Under the pieces are notes generated by a model. The model searched no databases. It was given only the letters and a program-made list of their open reading frames with translations, and was not told the origin of the DNA. A stretch of DNA of 64,000 nucleotides from Bacteroidota bacterium (GTDB lineage Bacteria > Bacteroidota > Bacteroidia > Flavobacteriales_D > Crocinitomicaceae): the NCBI GenBank assembly GCA_006226425.1, contig SBGX01000019.1:62001-126000 (forward strand), in the 5' to 3' direction. Positions 13,564-31,585 of the stretch are shown piece after piece; the stretch's first letter is position 1, and each line of letters begins with the position of its first letter. Position numbers and translations under genes: made by a program.

Positions 13564-14544
13564 CTAGGGTTTTCCTTTCATGTGGGCCTTCACAAAATCA
13601 CTTACCAGATAAGCGAGTGCTTTCCCTACCAGTGACTTTTCATCTGCCGTTTGTGGAGCCGCTTCCGGAAGATGTAAATAACAAGCATCAGATCGCCCCA
13701 TTTTTCGAAGATACATCCGAGCCTGCTCCAGGGAAATTCCTGAAGGAGTCATTGCGCTACTCGGCATATAAGCAATCGCATCCATGTCCAATTCGACCCC
13801 TATCACTTTCCCTTTACAAATCTCAAGCACCTTTTGGATGTCTTTGACAAATGCTTCTGGGTCCTCCAAATAATCGTCAAAGTAAGTCGCCATACAAGCA
13901 TCCTCCTTCAATCGATCCAATATATATTGATTATTGTATGACTCATGGAGTCCGAGGACGGCATAGAAATCCATCTTTCCTTCCTTCCGGGCCCAGGAAA
14001 ACGAATTTCCGCTGTGTCGGTAATCCGTTGCGCGATAATCGGCGTGCGGATCACAATTCACCACTGAAATTGGGGTTTTACAAACTTTTGAAACAGAACA
14101 AATGAGTGGATAAGCATTATTGTGCCCTCCTCCTATCAGGATCGGAATCATTCTCTGGGCAATCCAGGGCTCCAATAACTGCTCCACAGCAAGGTCAATC
14201 TCCCGGACCAGTTCCTTTTTCCTGGAAGGATCAAATTGAACGTTCGTCCGAAGTTCTCCAAGAATCTGAAATTCACTGCCATTCAAAAACTGATTGGACT
14301 GCATATTCACAAATTTTCCCACAAAGGATTCAAAAGCAGTGATCGATCCAGGCCTTCCTTCATTTGCTTGAGGCCCCAGATCTTCGCTAACTCCCAGGAT
14401 CAGGTACTTTGCCTTCCCCGAAGTTTCATTTCCCAGACTGACATGATCCCCTAGACGCTCTTCTCCTTCTCGATGAGTCAGGAAATAACCCAATTGCTCT
14501 TTGGTCCAGGGTTGAAAAGAACATACTTCATTGATCATTTTCAT
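13564..14544 (-). CDS. Formimidoylglutamase-like ureohydrolase (arginase/agmatinase superfamily)
   Basis: 326 residues. The binuclear manganese ligands of the superfamily are all visible: His in GGGHNN, Asp/His/Asp in CDPHADYR, and the Asp pair in ELDMDAI. The DPHADYR and ELDMDA variants differ from true arginases (DAHxD, DVD) and match the Bacteroidota proteins usually called formimidoylglutamase, the last histidine-degradation step giving glutamate and formamide. No other hut genes are in view, so the substrate is uncertain. It overlaps the upstream thioesterase gene by four bases (ATGA). Confidence 0.85.
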   Translation of the reverse strand: MKMINEVCSFQPWTKEQLGYFLTHREGEERLGDHVSLGNETSGKAKYLILGVSEDLGPQANEGRPGSITAFESFVGKFVNMQSNQFLNGSEFQILGELRTNVQFDPSRKKELVREIDLAVEQLLEPWIAQRMIPILIGGGHNNAYPLICSVSKVCKTPISVVNCDPHADYRATDYRHSGNSFSWARKEGKMDFYAVLGLHESYNNQYILDRLKEDACMATYFDDYLEDPEAFVKDIQKVLEICKGKVIGVELDMDAIAYMPSSAMTPSGISLEQARMYLRKMGRSDACYLHLPEAAPQTADEKSLVGKALAYLVSDFVKAHMKGKP

Positions 14545-15298: not shown

Positions 15299-16729
15299 AT
15301 GAATGCTAACTGTGAAACTGTTTGGAGCTCTTGTTTAAAAGTAATTAAAGATAACGTTCCTTTACAAGCTTTCAAAACCTGGTTTGAACCAATTGTTCCT
15401 ATCAAGTTGGAGGGGCATGTCCTGACCATTCAGGTTCCTTCTCACTTTTTCTATGAGTGGCTTGAGGAGCATTATATTACCCTACTTAAAAAGGTAATCA
15501 AAAAAGAGATTGGCACAGAAGGGCAGTTAGAATACAGCATCGTTATGGAAAACAACAATAAAAATGCGACTCCATATACGGTTAAATTACCCACTTCAAA
15601 TAAAACGGCTCTAAAAAATGCGCCGGTCAGCGTTCCTTTAAATTTAGAGGACAACCAAATTAAGAACCCATTCATTATTCCGGGACTTAAAAAGGTAAAT
15701 GTTGACAGCAACCTGAATCCGGCATATTCATTTGAAAATTTTGTAGAAGGTGACTGTAACCGTCTGGCCAGGTCAGCTGGTTATGCCGTAGCAAACAAGC
15801 CTGGAGGAACAGCATTTAACCCCCTCCTGATTTATGGAGGTGTTGGATTAGGGAAAACACACCTGGCTCACGCCATCGGAATTGGAATCAAAAATCAATT
15901 TCCCAATAAGACCGTCCTGTACGTTGGGTCGGAGAAATTTGCCCATCAATTTATTGATGCCATTAAAAATCAATCCACCAATGATTTCATCCACTTCTAT
16001 CAAATGGTAGACGTACTGATCATTGATGATGTTCAATTTTTCTCTGGGAAAGAGAAAACACAGGATGTCTTCTTCCATGTTTTCAACCACCTGCACCAAA
16101 ACGGAAAACAGATCATTTTGACATCTGACAAACCTCCGGTTGAAATGCAGGGTATGGAACAACGTCTACTATCCCGATTCAAATGGGGATTGTCTGCCGA
16201 TCTTTCCGCTCCTGATCTGGAAACGCGAATTGCTATTCTAGAGAAGAAGATGTATGGAAACGGAATCGAATTGCCCAAGGAAGTGGTTGAGTACCTGGCA
16301 TACAGCATCAACACAAACATCCGTGAGATGGAAGGAGCATGGACTTCTTTACTAGCTCAGGCTTCATTAAACAAAAAGGCCATCACCCTGGATCTTGCCA
16401 AGCAAATGATTGACAAATTTGTCAAGAATACAGCACGTGAGGTATCCATTGATTACATCCAGAAGGTTGTCTGTGATTACTTCGATCTACCGATCGAGAT
16501 GCTGAAATCAAAAACCAGAAAGAGAGAAGTTGTTCAGGCACGCCAGATTTCTATGTATTTCTCCAAAAAAATGACCAAATCATCTTTGGCAAGTATTGGA
16601 GCTCATTGCGGAGGAAAGGATCATGCGACGGTGTTACACGCCTGTCGGACTGTCTTAAACCTGTCCGAAACGGACAAACAGTTCCGAGCTTATCTGGAAG
16701 ATTTGGAAAAAAAATTGACCATACAATAA
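15299..16729 (+). CDS. dnaA: Chromosomal replication initiator protein DnaA
   Basis: 476 residues with the four DnaA domains. Domain I (about 1-85) has QAFKTWFEPIVP; a short linker follows; domain III is the AAA+ ATPase with Walker A GGVGLGKTH (180-188), Walker B VLIIDDVQFF (239-248) and an arginine-rich LLSRFKWGL; domain IV carries the DnaA signature GGKDHATVLHAC (438-449) that contacts DnaA boxes. It binds the origin as ATP-DnaA and opens the duplex. The gene is monocistronic, ending in a strong terminator. Its own promoter region is the AT-rich gap before it; DnaA autoregulation cannot be shown because no clear boxes are seen. Confidence 0.98.
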   Translation: MNANCETVWSSCLKVIKDNVPLQAFKTWFEPIVPIKLEGHVLTIQVPSHFFYEWLEEHYITLLKKVIKKEIGTEGQLEYSIVMENNNKNATPYTVKLPTSNKTALKNAPVSVPLNLEDNQIKNPFIIPGLKKVNVDSNLNPAYSFENFVEGDCNRLARSAGYAVANKPGGTAFNPLLIYGGVGLGKTHLAHAIGIGIKNQFPNKTVLYVGSEKFAHQFIDAIKNQSTNDFIHFYQMVDVLIIDDVQFFSGKEKTQDVFFHVFNHLHQNGKQIILTSDKPPVEMQGMEQRLLSRFKWGLSADLSAPDLETRIAILEKKMYGNGIELPKEVVEYLAYSINTNIREMEGAWTSLLAQASLNKKAITLDLAKQMIDKFVKNTAREVSIDYIQKVVCDYFDLPIEMLKSKTRKREVVQARQISMYFSKKMTKSSLASIGAHCGGKDHATVLHACRTVLNLSETDKQFRAYLEDLEKKLTIQ

Positions 16730-16827: not shown

Positions 16828-17796
16828 ATGAAAAACAAGGTAACATTCATCATGAATCCGTCGGAACTGGGAGCAGGAACAAGAGGTGCGTCCATGGGCC
16901 CCGGAGCCATTCAAAGTGCAGCCCGCGAAAAGGAAAGCACCCTGTTTGGAGAGCATGAAATCCGCTGGATTCCAGAACATAATTTTTTACTGGACCAGGA
17001 AAACAGATTTCCTCACGCCAAACATATTGATGGAATTGTACAAATTTTTGACTCCCTCATTGAGGAAATTAAAAACTGTCAGAATCGGCAAGAATTCCCT
17101 ATTGTAATCGCCGGAGACCACAGTTCTGGAGGAGGAACCCTGGCCGGTGTCTGTGCTGCGAATCCTGGAAAAAGAGTTGGAGTCATTTGGATTGATGCCC
17201 ATGGAGATCTTCATTCTCCGTACACAACCCCTTCCGGAAATGTACACGGCATGCCTCTGGCAACAGCCCTGGCAGAAGACAATATAGATTATGCCCGAAA
17301 TCAACCGGCTCCAGAAACCGTCCAACATTGGAACGCGTTAAAAAATGCCGGGGGAAGTTCTCCAAAAATTGAAGCTCAGGACCTCGTCTTTATGGGGGTC
17401 CGGGATACTGAAAAAGAAGAAAATGCCATCATTGATTCAAAAGGAATCCGAAATTACACCGTCGCAGAGGTCCGTGAAAAAGGAATTGCCCAATGTCTCC
17501 AAGAAATCGAGCAAAAACTGTCCGCTTGTGACCTGATCTACATCTCTTTTGATGTGGATTCCATGGACCCTGAATTAACCTCTCACGGAACCGGAACTCC
17601 TGTTCCAAACGGATTTACACCAGATGAGGCCAAAGACATCATTCTGGGACTTCTGGAAAACCCAAAGACAAGCTGCTTTGAACTAGTGGAGGTCAATCCA
17701 TGTTTGGATGAAAAGAAAAACAAAATGGCGGAAACAGCTTTTGACATCATTCAAGAGATCGTTCAAAAACTTAGTGACGTTTCATGGAACAACTGA
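16828..17796 (+). CDS. rocF: Arginase
   Basis: 322 residues. All manganese ligands of arginase are present: His in AGDHSS (near residue 96), Asp/His/Asp in DAHGDLH (near 122) and the Asp pair in SFDVDSMDP (near 240). The HGMPLA stretch and the EVNPCLDEKKNKMAETA C-terminal motif are typical of arginases. It converts arginine to ornithine and urea in the cytoplasm. A weak Shine-Dalgarno-like AAGGA precedes the ATG. The end overlaps argS by 13 bases. The ornithine aminotransferase at 57842 would take the product further to glutamate semialdehyde. Agmatinase is the main alternative but the C-terminal motif favours arginase. Confidence 0.88.
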   Translation: MKNKVTFIMNPSELGAGTRGASMGPGAIQSAAREKESTLFGEHEIRWIPEHNFLLDQENRFPHAKHIDGIVQIFDSLIEEIKNCQNRQEFPIVIAGDHSSGGGTLAGVCAANPGKRVGVIWIDAHGDLHSPYTTPSGNVHGMPLATALAEDNIDYARNQPAPETVQHWNALKNAGGSSPKIEAQDLVFMGVRDTEKEENAIIDSKGIRNYTVAEVREKGIAQCLQEIEQKLSACDLIYISFDVDSMDPELTSHGTGTPVPNGFTPDEAKDIILGLLENPKTSCFELVEVNPCLDEKKNKMAETAFDIIQEIVQKLSDVSWNN

Positions 17797-25507: not shown

Positions 25508-26808
25508 TGAAAAAGATCATTTTTGCACTATGCCTGTTTTGTATTGCTAGTTCAGCACGCGTACAGTCGCTTTATTTCCCCCCATTGACAGGAAGTACGT
25601 GGGAACAAACGGCCCCAGAAAACCTGGGATGGTGTCAGGAAAACATCGACAGTTTATACGCCTACCTTGAAGCAACAAACACGAAAGCCTTTCTACTTTT
25701 AAAAGATGGAAAGATCGTCCTGGAAAAGTATATGAATGGCTTTGCCCAGAGCGACCAATGGGTGTGGAATTCAGCTGCTAAAACCTTGACAGGTTTCGCT
25801 GTTGGAATCGCTCAGGAAAAAGGACTCCTATCACTCAACGATAGCAGTTCTCATTATCTTGGAAGTGGGTGGACGAGTCTCACGCCAGAGCAAGAAGGGA
25901 ACATCACGATCCGGCATCAAATCACCATGACAAGTGGATTAAAAAGTACCGGTGATCACTATTGTACTGATCCCGAATGCCTGATCTATGCAGCGGAACC
26001 CGGCACCAGATGGTCTTATCACAATGCCCCTTATACGCTGTTGGATAGAGTCCTTACTGAAGCTACCGGGATCAACTACGATGATTTCATCGAAAACAAT
26101 ATCCGTCAGAAAATTGGCATGGACGGAAAATTCTACAAAGTAGGATTCAACAACATCCATTTGAGTACCGCACGAAGCATGGCTCGTTTTGGACTTCTGC
26201 TCCTGGCTGATGGGACCTGGGATGGCACTGAAATACTGGGAGACCAGGTTTTTCTGGATAGCATGCGTAACACTTCACAGGAAATGAACCCATCGTATGG
26301 CTTTTTGACCTGGCTCAACGGAAAATCTTCTTACATGCTCCCTATTGAAAGTCTTCAGATTTCAATCAACCGAACAGCACTTCCAAATGCCCCTGAAGAT
26401 GTCTACATGGCGCTTGGAAAAGATGGACAAATGATCAATGTTTCTCCTTCCGAAAAGCTCATCATGGTCCGCATGGGGGAAGCCGACGGAAATAGTCTGG
26501 TCCCAAACGATTATAATGACACTATTTGGCAAAAGATCAATCAACTTCCATGTACAATTGGATTGATGGAACAAGAACTTCACTCCTTCCAAATACATCC
26601 AAATCCAGGCTCTGACCGAATTCACCTGAAACTACCCGAAGGTGAAGTAGTCAAGCAAATTAGCATCCTAAGTACTCAAGGAAAGGAAGTGGAATTATTC
26701 GTTCGTCCAGAAAAGGAAGTGAATGTTTCCGGATTGCTCCCCGGTATTTATTTCATCGAAGTCCAAACGGAAGACAGACGATATCAAAGCAAATTCATCC
26801 GGATGTAA
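25507..26808 (+). CDS. Secreted serine hydrolase (beta-lactamase/PBP-like) with T9SS sorting domain
   Basis: 433 residues. Signal peptide (MKKIIFALCLFCIASSARVQS). The class C beta-lactamase/esterase fold has the SxxK nucleophile motif SAAK (Ser89, Lys92) and the YxN motif YHN (171-173), with ARSMARFGLLLLADG as in Beta-lactamase family proteins (PF00144). The C-terminal 75 residues (IHPNPGSDRIHL to SKFIRM) are a T9SS sorting domain. It should act at the surface on an ester, amide or peptide; the substrate is unknown and beta-lactam hydrolysis should not be assumed. It is coupled on both sides by one-base stop/start overlaps. Confidence 0.9.
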   Translation: MKKIIFALCLFCIASSARVQSLYFPPLTGSTWEQTAPENLGWCQENIDSLYAYLEATNTKAFLLLKDGKIVLEKYMNGFAQSDQWVWNSAAKTLTGFAVGIAQEKGLLSLNDSSSHYLGSGWTSLTPEQEGNITIRHQITMTSGLKSTGDHYCTDPECLIYAAEPGTRWSYHNAPYTLLDRVLTEATGINYDDFIENNIRQKIGMDGKFYKVGFNNIHLSTARSMARFGLLLLADGTWDGTEILGDQVFLDSMRNTSQEMNPSYGFLTWLNGKSSYMLPIESLQISINRTALPNAPEDVYMALGKDGQMINVSPSEKLIMVRMGEADGNSLVPNDYNDTIWQKINQLPCTIGLMEQELHSFQIHPNPGSDRIHLKLPEGEVVKQISILSTQGKEVELFVRPEKEVNVSGLLPGIYFIEVQTEDRRYQSKFIRM

Positions 26809-27902
26809 TGAAACGAGCCCTTGCTCTCCTACTTTTCTTAGCTGTGACTTCTACTGGTCATACCCAGGAAAAGAGAGCATCCCAATGGCATCTCCAGGCA
26901 ATGTTTTCCCAGGGGGTCGTTTTACCTGAATACTCCTTTGTTCACTCAACCACCCAAACTCCAATTCAACAGATGGAGTTAAGTTTTCTTAAACAAAGTA
27001 AGGGAAATTCCTTCTGGCAGGAAATCTACAATTATCCAAAATTCGGTCTGGCCCTGTTTGCCGGAAGTCATGGGAATCCAGCAATACTTGGGCATGAAAT
27101 CGCTGTCTACCCCTTTGTAAGCCTAAGTAGCATACGTCGAAAAAAGTACTCCTGGGATCAAACGATTGGCCTCGGACTGGGATGGGCGAGCAAAAAATTT
27201 GACCTGGATAACAACCCGATGAATATTGCCGTTGGCTCGCACCTAAATGTCCATTTTCGCTTTCGAAGTTCCTTCTGCTGGTATCTTAATCAGCGTTGGA
27301 ACCTCATCACAGGGATCAACTTTCATCACTTTTCAAATGCAAATATGAAGGAACCGAACCTGGGAATCAACACGGTTTCCATTGCATTCGGAGCCAATTA
27401 CCGAATCAGTCCCGATCAGGAATACCTTCACAATGAGATTCCAGTCCATGAAGCGGCCAATGAATTTGCCTTTGTTTATGCCGCCGGTGGAAAACACACC
27501 CGAGCCCTACAAACAGACGTTTACTTTACCTCTTCCCTGTCATTTGAATTTAAACGTCGCTGGAAACGCAAATTTTGGTGGGGCCTTGGGACCGATTTGT
27601 TCTACGATTCTGCCACTGAAGTAGAATTGAGCACACCGGGCAAGAAAAGTTATCGCCCCTCTGATGATTTCAGAAGCGGATTACACCTTTCTCAAGAATT
27701 TGTCTATCAACAATTCAGTTTTGTTTTGCAAGAAGGAATCTACCTGGGACTGATCGATCAGGTGAACCACAACGTGATGTACAACCGGGCAATTATTCGC
27801 TACAAATGGAATCCTCATTTCTTTAGTCACATTTCCATGAAATCGCACCTGCATATCCTGGACTACCCAGAAGTTGGTTTTGCTTATTATTTCTCCAAAT
27901 GA
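26808..27902 (+). CDS. PagL-like lipid A 3-O-deacylase / acyloxyacyl hydrolase
   Basis: 364 residues with a signal peptide (MKRALALLLFLAVTSTGHTQ) and alternating hydrophobic strands that suggest an outer-membrane beta barrel. The key sign is FHHFSNANMKEPNLGIN (His174 and Ser176), which matches the PagL HxS catalytic pair and the following SNAxxxxPNxGxN stretch. PagL removes the 3-O acyl chain from lipid A. The protein is about twice the length of Pseudomonas PagL (near 170 residues), so only part of it is the PagL barrel. It overlaps the GIN-domain gene by four bases. Confidence 0.82.
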   Translation: MKRALALLLFLAVTSTGHTQEKRASQWHLQAMFSQGVVLPEYSFVHSTTQTPIQQMELSFLKQSKGNSFWQEIYNYPKFGLALFAGSHGNPAILGHEIAVYPFVSLSSIRRKKYSWDQTIGLGLGWASKKFDLDNNPMNIAVGSHLNVHFRFRSSFCWYLNQRWNLITGINFHHFSNANMKEPNLGINTVSIAFGANYRISPDQEYLHNEIPVHEAANEFAFVYAAGGKHTRALQTDVYFTSSLSFEFKRRWKRKFWWGLGTDLFYDSATEVELSTPGKKSYRPSDDFRSGLHLSQEFVYQQFSFVLQEGIYLGLIDQVNHNVMYNRAIIRYKWNPHFFSHISMKSHLHILDYPEVGFAYYFSK

Positions 27903-28609
27903 AACAGCTTCTAATCATATTCATCGCTTGTCTGGTTCTTTTTTCCTGTGAAAAGAGAAATCGGATCATACAACAACAGATTGAGGTAAATGATTTCAGA
28001 GAACTCAATCTGGAGAGCCACTTCGATGTTGAATTAATCCAGGGACAACAGTGCAAGGTCCTTATCGAGGCGCCAGAAAAATTGCTTCCAAAAGTTGAGA
28101 TCTCTCAGGAAGGAAAACAGTTGACTTGTAAACGTGGGGACAAAATGTCCTGGGTCTCGCCTAAAAACAACGACATCAAACTCATCATTACCGTAGATAG
28201 TCTTGAATTGATCCGAGCAAAGGAAAGCTGTGTCATCAACAGTAAAAATCAGTTGAGAGGAACAAGTCTGGGTGTCATTTTTGCAAGTAAGCTCAATGAA
28301 GCTCACCTGAATATTCAATACGAGAGCTTTTACTATTGGAATAATTTTCCCTGCGGAGGAGTTTTGGAACTTCAGGGAAACTGCTCTTTACTTAGCATCT
28401 GGAATTATGCACTGATGCAAGTTCAGGCCGAACAACTTAACTGTGCAACGGCACTCATCCAAAATAGTTCAAAGGGAGATTGTCACATCCGAGCCTCAGA
28501 AGCAATCAAATACCACATTTTTGGGGAAGGGAACATCCATCTATATGGAAATCCTGGCACCATTATCCAGGAAGCCAACAGCGGTAAGGGAGAGTTAATC
28601 ATTCATTAA
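27899..28609 (+). CDS. GIN-domain (DUF2807) lipoprotein
   Basis: 236 residues. Lipobox LVLFSC (Cys17) and then a DUF2807-type beta-helix: VNDFRELNLESHFDVELIQG, VLIEAPEKLLPKVEIS and LKLIITVDSLE-type turns. Members are called putative auto-transporter adhesins or head GIN domains and sit on the outer membrane; biochemical function is not known. Last gene of the operon. Confidence 0.85.
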   Translation: MKQLLIIFIACLVLFSCEKRNRIIQQQIEVNDFRELNLESHFDVELIQGQQCKVLIEAPEKLLPKVEISQEGKQLTCKRGDKMSWVSPKNNDIKLIITVDSLELIRAKESCVINSKNQLRGTSLGVIFASKLNEAHLNIQYESFYYWNNFPCGGVLELQGNCSLLSIWNYALMQVQAEQLNCATALIQNSSKGDCHIRASEAIKYHIFGEGNIHLYGNPGTIIQEANSGKGELIIH

Positions 28610-28670: not shown

Positions 28671-29549
28671 TTAAGCCGTTACTCCAATAACTTCTGCCAT
28701 TTTCTTTCCGATATCTGCTGGCGAGTCCACAACGTGAATTCCGCAGTCACGCATGATTCTTTTCTTCGCTTCAGCTGTATCATCATGTCCTCCGACAATC
28801 GCTCCGGCGTGTCCCATCGTTCTTCCTTTTGGTGCAGTTTCTCCGGCGATGAATCCGACAACTGGCTTTTTCGCGTTGTCTTTAATCCATCTTGCTGCGA
28901 TTGCTTCCAGGTTCCCTCCGATCTCACCGATCATCACGATTCCTTCTGTTTCCGGATCATTCATTAACAATTCAACCGCTTCTTTGGTGGTTGTTCCGAT
29001 GATTGGGTCTCCACCGATTCCGATCGCTGTTGTAATTCCCAACCCAGCTTTTGCTACCTGATCTGCAGCTTCATAAGTCAATGTTCCTGACTTGGAAACA
29101 ATTCCTACTTTTCCTTTCTTGAAAACAAAACCGGGCATGATTCCTACTTTTGCTTCACCAGCCGTGATTACTCCCGGACAGTTGGGCCCGATCAAACGAC
29201 AATCATACGCACTGATAAATTCTTTGGCTTTCACCATATCATTCACTGGAATTCCTTCCGTGATACATACGATCACTTTGATTCCTGCACTGGCAGCTTC
29301 CATAATTGCATCTGCAGCAAAGGCAGGTGGTACAAAAATGATTGACACATCAGCACCTGTTTTTTTCACCGCATCTTCCACCGTGTTGAAAACCGGACGA
29401 TCCAGATGAGATTGACCTCCTTTACCCGGAGTAACTCCACCTACCACGTTTGTTCCGTACTCAATCATTTGTCCGGCATGGAAAGTTCCTTCACTTCCTG
29501 TAAAGCCCTGTACGATCACCTTTGAATCTTTGTTTACCAGTACACTCAT
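28671..29549 (-). CDS. sucD: Succinate--CoA ligase, alpha subunit
   Basis: 292 residues. CoA-binding Rossmann domain with [18 protein letters not shown] and [12 protein letters not shown], ligase domain with [10 protein letters not shown], and the phosphohistidine in GHAGAI (His247). It makes succinate, CoA and ATP/GTP from succinyl-CoA in the TCA cycle. The beta subunit gene is not adjacent, which is usual in Bacteroidota. Methylmalonyl-CoA mutase at 9292 supplies succinyl-CoA to the same step. Confidence 0.97.
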
Positions 29550-29569
29550 TGCTCAATTTTATTTGCTCC

Positions 29570-29601
29570 CAAAATTAGTGTTTTGATCCAGACCTGCCAA
29601 A
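29570..29601 (-). promoter_or_regulatory. sucD promoter
   Basis: Minus strand: TTTG (29598-29601), 20 bases, TAATTTTG (29570-29577), both matching the Bacteroidota sigma-70 consensus. Predicted leader about 17 bases. Confidence 0.7.
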
Positions 29602-29755
29602 TTATTCCGGGACTATTTTCCCCTTTCATCCTAAAGGATGTCTTAGCTCATTTACTTTTTTTTCACTTTTTCCTGAACCAATTCAAAAGATGAATGTACT
29701 GCCTGAAAAATGAGCTCAACATTTACATTGAATCACAAACATAAATTCAAAACTC

Positions 29756-30670
29756 ATGAAAAAGATATTTTTTTTAGTCGCTGGAATCGCGTTTAGTTTC
29801 CAGAGTTATTATGCCCAGTACAATTCATGTGCTGCCAAAAGCGTAGTCACCGAAAGCAAAAGAGTCAAAGTACTGGATGAAGTCACGGGTGATTATTCGT
29901 ACGAACAACAGGAAGTTCCGGTCCAACAACGTGACAATTTTGGAAATGCTTCCGGAAACCAGTATGACCTGGCCGTAGACGGCGCCTTTGAAGGACAAAC
30001 CATAGTTGTTCTACATCTGTACACCGGAGAGAATTTTGATTTTGAAGCCCCTAAAAAGGCCCTTGCCGAAAAGGGATTTTCTGTTTACCGCTACATCAAC
30101 AATCCTCCTTCCCCGGAAGAATTGAAAAAGTCATTGGACAAGGCCTGTCAGCTTTGGGTTATTTCCACCACGACCCAACGTTTGAATGATGAACATGCCA
30201 AGGTTATTAAAGAGTTCTTCGATAGTGGTCGCGGAGTTTATATCTGGGGAGACAATGATCCATACCATGCTGACGCTGACTTCCTGAGCAAGAAACTCCT
30301 GGGAACTACTATGAGTGGATACTATACCGGAAGTAAAAATGTGACCTTCAAAGATTTTGATACGAAGGGGGGAATGGTCAAAAATCACCTGATCACCACC
30401 GGATTGGAGTACGTTTTCGAAGGAATCACCATTTCTCAATTACACGACCCAAATCAACAATTGACCCCATTGATCTGGAGTTCTGACGGAAATGTCGTTA
30501 CCGGAATCTATGAACGTGATGGAAAAAGACTGATCATTGACGGAGGTTTTACACGACTTTACTGCAACTGGAATACGGCTGGAACTGGTCGTTATGTCAA
30601 GAATGCGGCTGCATGGCTAGTCAATTATGAGCGTTTCGGCGACGAGGTATTGGGTGAAAACATCAAATAA
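29756..30670 (+). CDS. Secreted protein of unknown function, first of a tandem paralogue pair
   Basis: 304 residues. Signal peptide (MKKIFFLVAGIAFSFQSYYAQ), then YNSCA. The core alternates strands and helices (GQTIVVLHLYTGENFDFEAP, ALAEKGFSVYRYI, ACQLWVISTTTQRL, GRGVYIWGDNDPYHADADF, IDGGFTRLYCNWNTAGTGR), which suggests a glutamine-amidotransferase-like or ThuA/IFT52-like Rossmann fold; this is an inference and no catalytic triad is evident. The conserved GDNxPYHADADFL could bind metal. The next gene is a close paralogue nine bases downstream. Confidence 0.85.
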   Translation: MKKIFFLVAGIAFSFQSYYAQYNSCAAKSVVTESKRVKVLDEVTGDYSYEQQEVPVQQRDNFGNASGNQYDLAVDGAFEGQTIVVLHLYTGENFDFEAPKKALAEKGFSVYRYINNPPSPEELKKSLDKACQLWVISTTTQRLNDEHAKVIKEFFDSGRGVYIWGDNDPYHADADFLSKKLLGTTMSGYYTGSKNVTFKDFDTKGGMVKNHLITTGLEYVFEGITISQLHDPNQQLTPLIWSSDGNVVTGIYERDGKRLIIDGGFTRLYCNWNTAGTGRYVKNAAAWLVNYERFGDEVLGENIK

Positions 30671-30679
30671 GGAGAAATC
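30663..30679 (+). promoter_or_regulatory. Strong Shine-Dalgarno site before the second paralogue
   Basis: AAGGAG lies eight bases or less upstream of the ATG at 30680, right at the stop of the preceding gene. Such purine-rich sites are rare in this window. Confidence 0.5.
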
Positions 30680-31585
30680 ATGAAAAAAATAATCATTCTT
30701 AGTGCTGGAATCTTTCTCTTTTTTCAGGGATATCATGCTCAGTACAACAGCTGTGCGTCAGTCAGTGAAGTCACAGAAACAAGACGAGTTGAAGTCAAGG
30801 ACCGTGAAACCGGCAAAGTGAAGTACGAAGACCAAAAAGTTCGTGTCAAAAAGAGAGATGCCTTTGGAAACGCAGCCGGGAATCAATATGACCTCGCCGT
30901 GGATGGTGCTTTCGAAGGGCAAACCATCTTGGTTCTGCAACTGGTCAACATCAACTTTGATGCCCCCAAAAATGCATTGGCGGAAAAGGGGTTTTCGGTT
31001 TATCGCTACGTCAACAAAGCACCTAGTCCAGAAGAACTCAAAAAATCATTGGACAAAGCCTGTCAACTATGGGTCATCTCCGGTTCATCACAACAGCTCA
31101 ACAATGAACACGCCAGGGTCATTCAGGATTTTTTTAATCAGGGAAAAGGAGTCTATATCTGGGGCGACAACACTCCTTATCATGCAGACGCAGACTTCTT
31201 AACGAAGCAATTGCTTGGAACGACCATGAGCGGAACTTACCAGGGAGATCAAAACGTAACTTTTAAAGACTACGATACCAAAGGAGGGATGCTAAAAAAC
31301 CACCTGATCACCACTGGATTGGAGTATGTCTACGAGGGAATTACCATTTCTAAAATACACGACCAAAATCAACAATTGACTCCCCTTATCTGGAGTTCTG
31401 ATGGAAACGTGGTTGCAGGGATTTATGAACGAGACGGAAAACGACTGATTATCGACGGAGGCTTTACCCGTTTGTACTACAAATGGAATACTGCCGGCAC
31501 GGGTCGATACGTCAAAAATGCTGCTGCATGGCTGATTAACTACGAGCGATTCGGAGATGAAGTTTTGGGAGAAAACTTAAAATAA
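30680..31585 (+). CDS. Secreted protein of unknown function, second of a tandem paralogue pair
   Basis: 301 residues with a signal peptide (MKKIIILSAGIFLFFQGYHAQ). It aligns with the preceding protein along its whole length: identical blocks include GNQYDLAVDGAFEGQTI, LAEKGFSVYRY, LLGTTMSG and YVKNAAAWL. Differences cluster in the first 60 residues and in the segment after GQTI, where this copy is three residues shorter. Same operon, a recent tandem duplication. Function unknown. Confidence 0.85.
   Translation: MKKIIILSAGIFLFFQGYHAQYNSCASVSEVTETRRVEVKDRETGKVKYEDQKVRVKKRDAFGNAAGNQYDLAVDGAFEGQTILVLQLVNINFDAPKNALAEKGFSVYRYVNKAPSPEELKKSLDKACQLWVISGSSQQLNNEHARVIQDFFNQGKGVYIWGDNTPYHADADFLTKQLLGTTMSGTYQGDQNVTFKDYDTKGGMLKNHLITTGLEYVYEGITISKIHDQNQQLTPLIWSSDGNVVAGIYERDGKRLIIDGGFTRLYYKWNTAGTGRYVKNAAAWLINYERFGDEVLGENLK

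Follow-up and report, generated by a model that had tools for sequence, protein, structure and literature searches.

A member of the Crocinitomicaceae (Bacteroidota; GenBank assembly GCA_006226425.1, a genome of 3.4 Mb in 36 contigs) carries side by side two genes for closely similar proteins of some 300 residues, and the question raised by this locus is to what kind of protein the two copies belong and what they may do after having diverged from one another. We analyzed a stretch of 64,000 nucleotides of contig SBGX01000019.1 that includes both genes (hereafter the window). The two adjacent paralogs described by an earlier reading of the sequence alone are indeed there, as two open reading frames in tandem with an intergenic gap of 9 bp (Table 1), flanked on one side by a succinyl-CoA ligase-type gene (28671-29549) and on the other by an FKBP-type isomerase gene, both on the opposite strand. 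The rare strong Shine-Dalgarno site claimed for the second gene is the sole one (AAGGAG, AGGAGG, GGAGGT or AGGAGA at -18 to -5) among the 51 open reading frames of at least 150 amino acids in the window, each taken from its first ATG, some of which may be wrong starts. A Bacteroidetes-type -7 box (TAnnTTTG) was not found on the plus strand in 29550-29760 or 30560-30682, and no third copy was detected in the host genome at E ≤ 0.001. Both genes probably belong to one small operon, whose products are soluble and exported.

Table 1. Positions in the window of the two paralogs and of their main sequence features
Feature	Position	Strand	Remarks
Paralog a	29756..30670	+	304 aa exported protein; slower-evolving copy; TGENFDF loop kept
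Paralog b	30680..31585	+	301 aa exported protein; faster-evolving; TGE of the loop lost (3-residue deletion)
AAGGAG Shine-Dalgarno-like site	30669..30674	+	5 nt before the ATG of b; overlaps the stop codon of a
Leader of a	29756..29815	+	predicted cleavage between A and QYN; by eye and Q-rule
Leader of b	30680..30739	+	predicted cleavage between A and QYN; by eye and Q-rule
Conserved family domain of a	29933..30637	+	residues 60-294; GATase1/GIFT-like fold aligns at about 78-295
Loop after strand 1 in a	30023..30043	+	TGENFDF, residues 90-96; changed in b and in additional copies of other multi-copy genomes
DNDPYHAD motif of a	30251..30274	+	residues 166-173; between strand 160-164 and helix 172-182
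DGGFTR motif of a	30539..30556	+	residues 262-267
DNTPYHAD motif of b	31166..31189	+	
DGGFTR motif of b	31454..31471	+	

Comparison of the two copies (a and b) yielded 77.3% identity over 304 aligned protein positions and 72% over 903 aligned bases, with dN values of 0.155-0.164 and dS values between 1.5 (LWL85) and 6.1 (NG86, saturated). Because synonymous sites are near saturation and the protein has been kept, the resemblance between the copies is not due to chance; judging from these substitution estimates, the pair goes back to an old duplication and has been held under strong purifying selection. Divergence had been described as concentrated near the N-terminus, and identity is indeed low throughout residues 1-60 (12/20, 13/20 and 10/20 in consecutive blocks of 20 residues), but some later blocks are low as well (11/20 at 81-100, where b has its 3-residue deletion, and 12/20 at 141-160), and the claim of concentration does not hold in full. 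The segment GDNxPYHADADFL, where x is D or T, is exactly common to both copies, as had been noticed.

Both proteins start with a hydrophobic leader that ends in A followed by QYN. Examination of 40 long-form homologues, comprising 36 Bacteroidota members uncut by a contig end, one that is cut (L016) and three from outside the phylum (L011, L014 and L120), recognized by pattern and eye a hydrophobic leader with QYN or QAYN after it in all 36 of the uncut Bacteroidota members and in none of the three outsiders. Substrates of signal peptidase I in Bacteroidetes typically have a glutamine after the cleavage site (PMC5837995; PMC10653852). The hydrophobic leaders with Q at +1 point to Sec-dependent export with predicted cleavage by this peptidase, in agreement with the earlier designation of the pair as secreted.

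Searches of family collections, like the sequence-only reading, recognized no family: Pfam gave no match at E ≤ 10 for either protein, NCBIfam and PHROGs nothing significant for either of them (the sole NCBIfam match, for b, was at 0.12; PHROGs gave 5.0 for a), and PADLOC no match for a. Sequence searches of the PDB gave nothing convincing (1.3 for a alone; 0.03, to a designed protein, and 0.97 with a profile). No published description of the family was found among the titles and abstract openings searched, and an earlier one may exist. Profile comparison by hhalign of the family (29 rows) with the alignments of GldG, DUF4350 and ThuA yielded 0.35, 0.44 and 3.3%, none of them significant, against 0.06-0.9% for controls that were shuffled or unrelated and that included no ThuA shuffle. 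The same procedure linked the family to six relatives of about 200 residues (98.8%) and to an intermediate sequence, L022 (99.9%), and linked the 200-residue relatives to DUF4350 at 65%. In Pfam, three of these shorter proteins gave matches below the cut-offs to DUF7408 (4e-4), IFT52_GIFT (0.057), OST48_N (0.042) and ThuA (0.02), and the scan of L022 was without a match. The shorter relatives (L023, L049-L052 and L075) have leader-like N-termini, recur in the host family and keep [DE]NxP and DGGYxRF.

The family is, by these sequence searches, patchy and rare outside the host family. One scan of a species-genome collection, which reaches close relatives only, gave 12 loci with relatives, and 9 of 59 genomes of near relatives matched, including the genome studied here and weaker matches (G002, G045). 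Within the host family at least 57 of 200 genomes matched at E ≤ 0.001, 26 of them with the long form (our genome included) and 31 with weak matches only, mostly to frames of about 200 residues. Sampling throughout the phylum gave at least 1 of 395 genomes, namely the one studied here; around the cyanobacterium that carries a homologue the counts were at least 1 of 292 and 1 of 97, and around the Clostridia member at least 1 of 398 and 2 of 201, the already known genome being counted in each time. The figures for the samples of 200, 395, 292 and 398 are lower bounds, as a limited number of first-look candidates was scored per genome. The possibility of a mobile or phage gene was rejected, there being no match in viral contigs, phages or plasmids.

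To what fold the proteins belong was addressed with AlphaFold2 models based on the family alignment (pLDDT 87.6 for a and 90.6 for the domain of b), whose comparison with PDB structures by VIA-align and Foldseek bore out the Rossmann-like, possibly glutamine-amidotransferase-like fold suspected from the sequence. In the case of VIA-align, which re-ranks Foldseek's top 1000 chains only, the best match of both models was the GIFT domain of IFT52 (5fmr_A; Z 18.7 for a and 18.9 for b, rmsd 2.5 for each, 195 and 194 residues aligned) and the second OST48 (8b6l_N; Z 17.5 and 17.6), followed by TrpG (15.8 and 16.4), the ThuA-like protein 1t0b (16.1 for both) and Salmonella STM1381/STM3548 (about 16); other IFT52 and OST48 entries (8bd7_B, 15.3; 6c26_B, 15.0) lie inside the range of the GATase and ThuA proteins. 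The order by Foldseek E-value differs, other superfamily members coming first: at the top (3e-8 to 1.4e-7) are 1t0b and a beta-1,2-glucosyltransferase, the latter with its GATase-like domain, OST48 ranks lower, and IFT52 is not among the best 50 rows of either search. Among the viral structures of BFVD the best match (E 3.2e-8) was to a Caudovirales protein, followed by herpesvirus proteins (one annotated as tegument protein/FGARAT), which we take as generic fold matches. The predicted models clearly place the pair in the class I amidotransferase-like superfamily, and they moderately support the GIFT subfamily within it.

The pair can be set against the known members of this superfamily. With the GIFT domains of GldG, IFT52 and OST48/Wbp1 the models share the predicted fold (Z 17-19, 2.4-3.1 Å over 190-205 residues for IFT52 and the best OST48 rows), and the family is also devoid of the amidotransferase cysteine; it differs from them in its low identity (10-15%), in its own motifs (DNxP..D and DGGFTR) and in being a free exported protein, and at the sequence level Pfam connects the pair with none of the three, the hhalign value for GldG being that of the controls. 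GldG itself (PF09822) is present in 23 of 24 genomes of relatives. The fold is shared with ThuA-like proteins (PF06283; Z 16.1, among the lowest Foldseek E-values), but the pair has no Pfam match to them, a single one of 15 members reaching E 0.11. DUF4350 (PF14258) likewise has no Pfam match to the pair, its hhalign likeness being confined to the 200-residue relatives. Class I glutamine amidotransferases (TrpG, GuaA) resemble the models in fold (Z about 14-16) but have a catalytic cysteine that is absent here. The pair is a new family of a known fold, not a new kind of system.

Examination of the 40 homologues, which come from three phyla, identified 52 invariant positions in the domain, including D60, G63, N64, D71, W134, D166, N167, P169, D173, H211 and E222, as well as D262-G263-G264, T266-R267, W272, R279, N283 and W287. 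The rows had first been picked by DGG[FY]TRL and [DE]NxP, and part of those motifs is hence fixed by the selection; a blastp of all open reading frames of the loci (E ≤ 1e-25) added to the first 39 only L047, which completes the 40, and the shorter L022, which was left out. Identity is 42-56% even to the four most distant members of the first alignment, A1 (L009, L010, L011 and L014). L022 and the six 200-residue relatives, the latter picked by DGGY[AS]RF, keep [DE]N.P, Y162, G188, DGG and R267; the 200-residue relatives have N/T in place of H211 and S/A in place of E222, in an alignment that is uncertain. The fixed polar set probably forms one site. Of the conserved His/Asp metal ligands proposed from the sequence, the conservation stands, D166, D173, H211, E222 and D262 being invariant in all 40, but conservation does not show a metal.

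No cysteine is invariant in the 40 sequences; the position of C131, before strand 132-136, is C in 37 of them. A disulfide between paired cysteines was considered and rejected, as the two common cysteines are not kept together (L008 is without the first and L009 without the second). The GDN/DNxP segment comes, in the model of a, directly after strand 160-164 and leads into helix 172-182. We presume, from the topology of the fold rather than from coordinates, that this is the place of the nucleophile-elbow cysteine of amidotransferases. Because the predicted fold is the same, no cysteine is invariant and this place would be occupied by DNxP, amidotransferase chemistry is not expected.

How the two copies arose and diverged can be judged from the rest of the host family, where 5 of the 26 long-form genomes are multi-copy: our genome, G532/L005, G485 and G482 with two copies each, and G483/L003 with three. 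In the 40-row tree the window pair (100/98) and the three copies of L003 (91/84) each form a separate clade, the Fluviicola copies (L005 and G485) group between the genomes, one from each, and the copies of G482 split elsewhere (92/67). By this tree the five genomes represent four separately placed sets of copies, behind which a deeper duplication with loss, or gene conversion, may lie. L013, titled Chitinophaga pinensis, is nearly identical to L004 and groups with Flavobacteriales MAGs in the same tree; its title is probably wrong.

Each of the five multi-copy genomes has exactly one copy with the residues TGE (90-92), which the remaining copies have lost by deletion or substitution. TGE is present in 24 of the other 29 homologues, several of which are close relatives and not independent. 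Since five single-copy members (L014, L021, L039, L047 and L120) are without TGE, its loss is not confined to duplicates. End branches of the copies without TGE, compared with those of the TGE copies, measured 0.18 vs 0.034 in the window, 0.15 vs 0.032 in G482 and 0.092 vs 0.0069 in G485; those of the two Fluviicola copies of L005 were equal (0.018 each), and L003 gave 0.24 and 0.055 for its TGE-less copies vs 0.083 for the TGE copy. This pattern of sequence change suggests that one copy was conserved and the other retuned.

Placing these results into a functional model, we tentatively propose, with a confidence somewhat short of even, that the pair are exported ligand-binding proteins of the GIFT type rather than amidotransferases, with a sugar as the first guess for the ligand, and that the copies diverge in specificity. 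The reading is supported by the export leader, the predicted fold, the lack of an invariant cysteine, the invariance of the domain positions and the duplication pattern; the operon, the residues lining one pocket, ligand binding, the ligand class and the split in specificity are what we infer. Each protein would consist of a short N-terminal arm and one class I amidotransferase-like (GIFT/ThuA-type) domain without nucleophile, in which N64, D71, D166, N167, D173, H211, E222, D262, R267, R279 and N283 most likely line a single pocket along the sheet's C-terminal edge. This putative pocket would bind a small polar ligand. We would think first of a sugar or a piece of a glycan, because the nearest folds (GIFT domains, ThuA and glycosidase domains) are tied to carbohydrate; binding of sugar by GIFT domains has been proposed (PMC7226087). 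After the duplication one copy would have kept the common loop while the other changed it and evolved faster, so that between them the two proteins may bind a pair of related ligands or partners.

Conservation as strict as this would be equally in keeping with an enzyme and with a binding protein. An exported hydrolase, isomerase or esterase on a ThuA/GATase-like scaffold, with D166, D173, H211, E222 and D262 as a possibly metal-dependent active site, would account for the 52 invariant positions, D, H, E and R among them, for the identity retained by the most distant members and for the predicted likeness to ThuA-like proteins (Z 16.1; Foldseek E 5e-8). We nonetheless regard it as rather unlikely, as no known catalytic triad is recognizable by eye, the PDB sequence searches gave no enzyme relative at a meaningful E-value, and the six 200-residue relatives keep [DE]NxP and DGG[FY] but, within the uncertainty of that alignment, not H211 and E222.

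The neighbors of the family were read at 26 distinct places, two of them around shorter relatives (L074 and L075). A conserved operon partner was sought and rejected: the commonest neighbor cluster (sigma-factor-like, by eye) occurs at 5 of the 26 places and in no constant position, and carbohydrate genes were not among the neighbors seen to recur at these places. In Pseudanabaena cinerea FACHB-1277 (L011) an Hsp70 protein of 769 residues (Pfam HSP70 at 5-495, E 7e-107) has the family domain as its C-terminal part. Its gene lies in a cluster (L011:291-10419, also L076) with three more open reading frames of Hsp70 type, one Pfam-confirmed and the other two recognized by eye, a gene resembling GrpE (32.9 bits), a vWA gene of TerF type that stayed below threshold and, by eye, a trypsin-type protease-like open reading frame. 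In the Clostridia MAG (L014:2449-6714, L077:9111-17682) the domain lies behind a TerY_C-like zinc ribbon (17.2 bits, cut-off 28.4). This ribbon recurs in an adjacent vWA (TerY-like) protein (29.5 bits), which has a neighbor copy (by eye), and in a TerD protein (156.5 bits); the cluster further includes a kinase (51.6 bits) and a protein weakly resembling PP2C (21.5 bits, cut-off 24). PADLOC gave generic kinase matches only for this cluster. L120, from among the relatives of this MAG, has a Cys-rich N-terminus, and its two neighboring open reading frames on a 6.5 kb contig are not Ter-like by eye.

The Clostridia cluster is nearly the TerY-P triad reported in PMC11090510, and clusters of Hsp70/GrpE and vWA genes are presented as conflict systems in PMC7159879, the main text of which contains no occurrence of GATase or ThuA. 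Two distant homologues (L014 and L011) are part of such clusters, the Ter components being partly assembled at L014/L077, but the window pair differs in being exported and in having no Ter or Hsp70 gene seen around it, among the open reading frames of about 11-36 kb inspected by eye and seven, the pair included, inspected by Pfam. With one case each, the Hsp70 and Ter contexts are weak evidence for a common role.

These contexts bear on a second alternative, namely that the domain is a protein-protein scaffold, as the GIFT domains of IFT52 (a structural train component according to PMC10191852) and OST48 are in their complexes, and that the Hsp70 and Ter contexts reflect recruitment of stress machinery. 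The best VIA-align matches, which are GIFT domains of large complexes, and the Hsp70 fusion in Pseudanabaena speak for such a role; we hold it to be decidedly unlikely given that 36 of the 40 homologues are, by leader and length, exported single-domain proteins, that no partner gene is widely recurrent (5 of 26 places at most) and that many invariant positions are polar or charged, which would fit a ligand site. An active class I glutamine amidotransferase or glutaminase, to which the overall fold of the models would conform, is highly improbable and already contradicted by the lack of an invariant cysteine, the only common one lying before strand 132-136.

The reading of the pair as exported ligand-binding proteins can be extended, in a way that we consider speculative and on balance improbable, to a domain that serves as a common sensor of a single conserved small ligand, extracytoplasmic in Bacteroidota and the input module of cytosolic Hsp70/Ter stress or conflict systems in other phyla (C-terminal to Hsp70 in the cyanobacterium, behind the zinc ribbon in Clostridia), whose repeated duplications in the host family retune a specificity loop while one copy stays constant. 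Should the reading of the pair as ligand-binding proteins of the GIFT type be right, environmental Bacteroidota would possess, in the form of a free and soluble protein, a domain family of the IFT52/OST48/GldG-type fold that is conserved with great strictness and has no name, offering a simple system for testing the old proposal of sugar binding by GIFT domains and a candidate ligand-sensing part for the Hsp70 and Ter stress clusters.

Elsewhere in the window, a dnaA-like open reading frame (15299-16729, by eye) has arginase/agmatinase-family-like open reading frames on both sides (13564-14544 and 16828-17796), and DnaA boxes in the window show no excess (17 vs 18.1 expected). Upstream of the succinyl-CoA ligase-type gene, a PagL-type lipid A deacylase (Pfam 48.1 bits) is followed directly by a DUF2807 protein (26808-28609).
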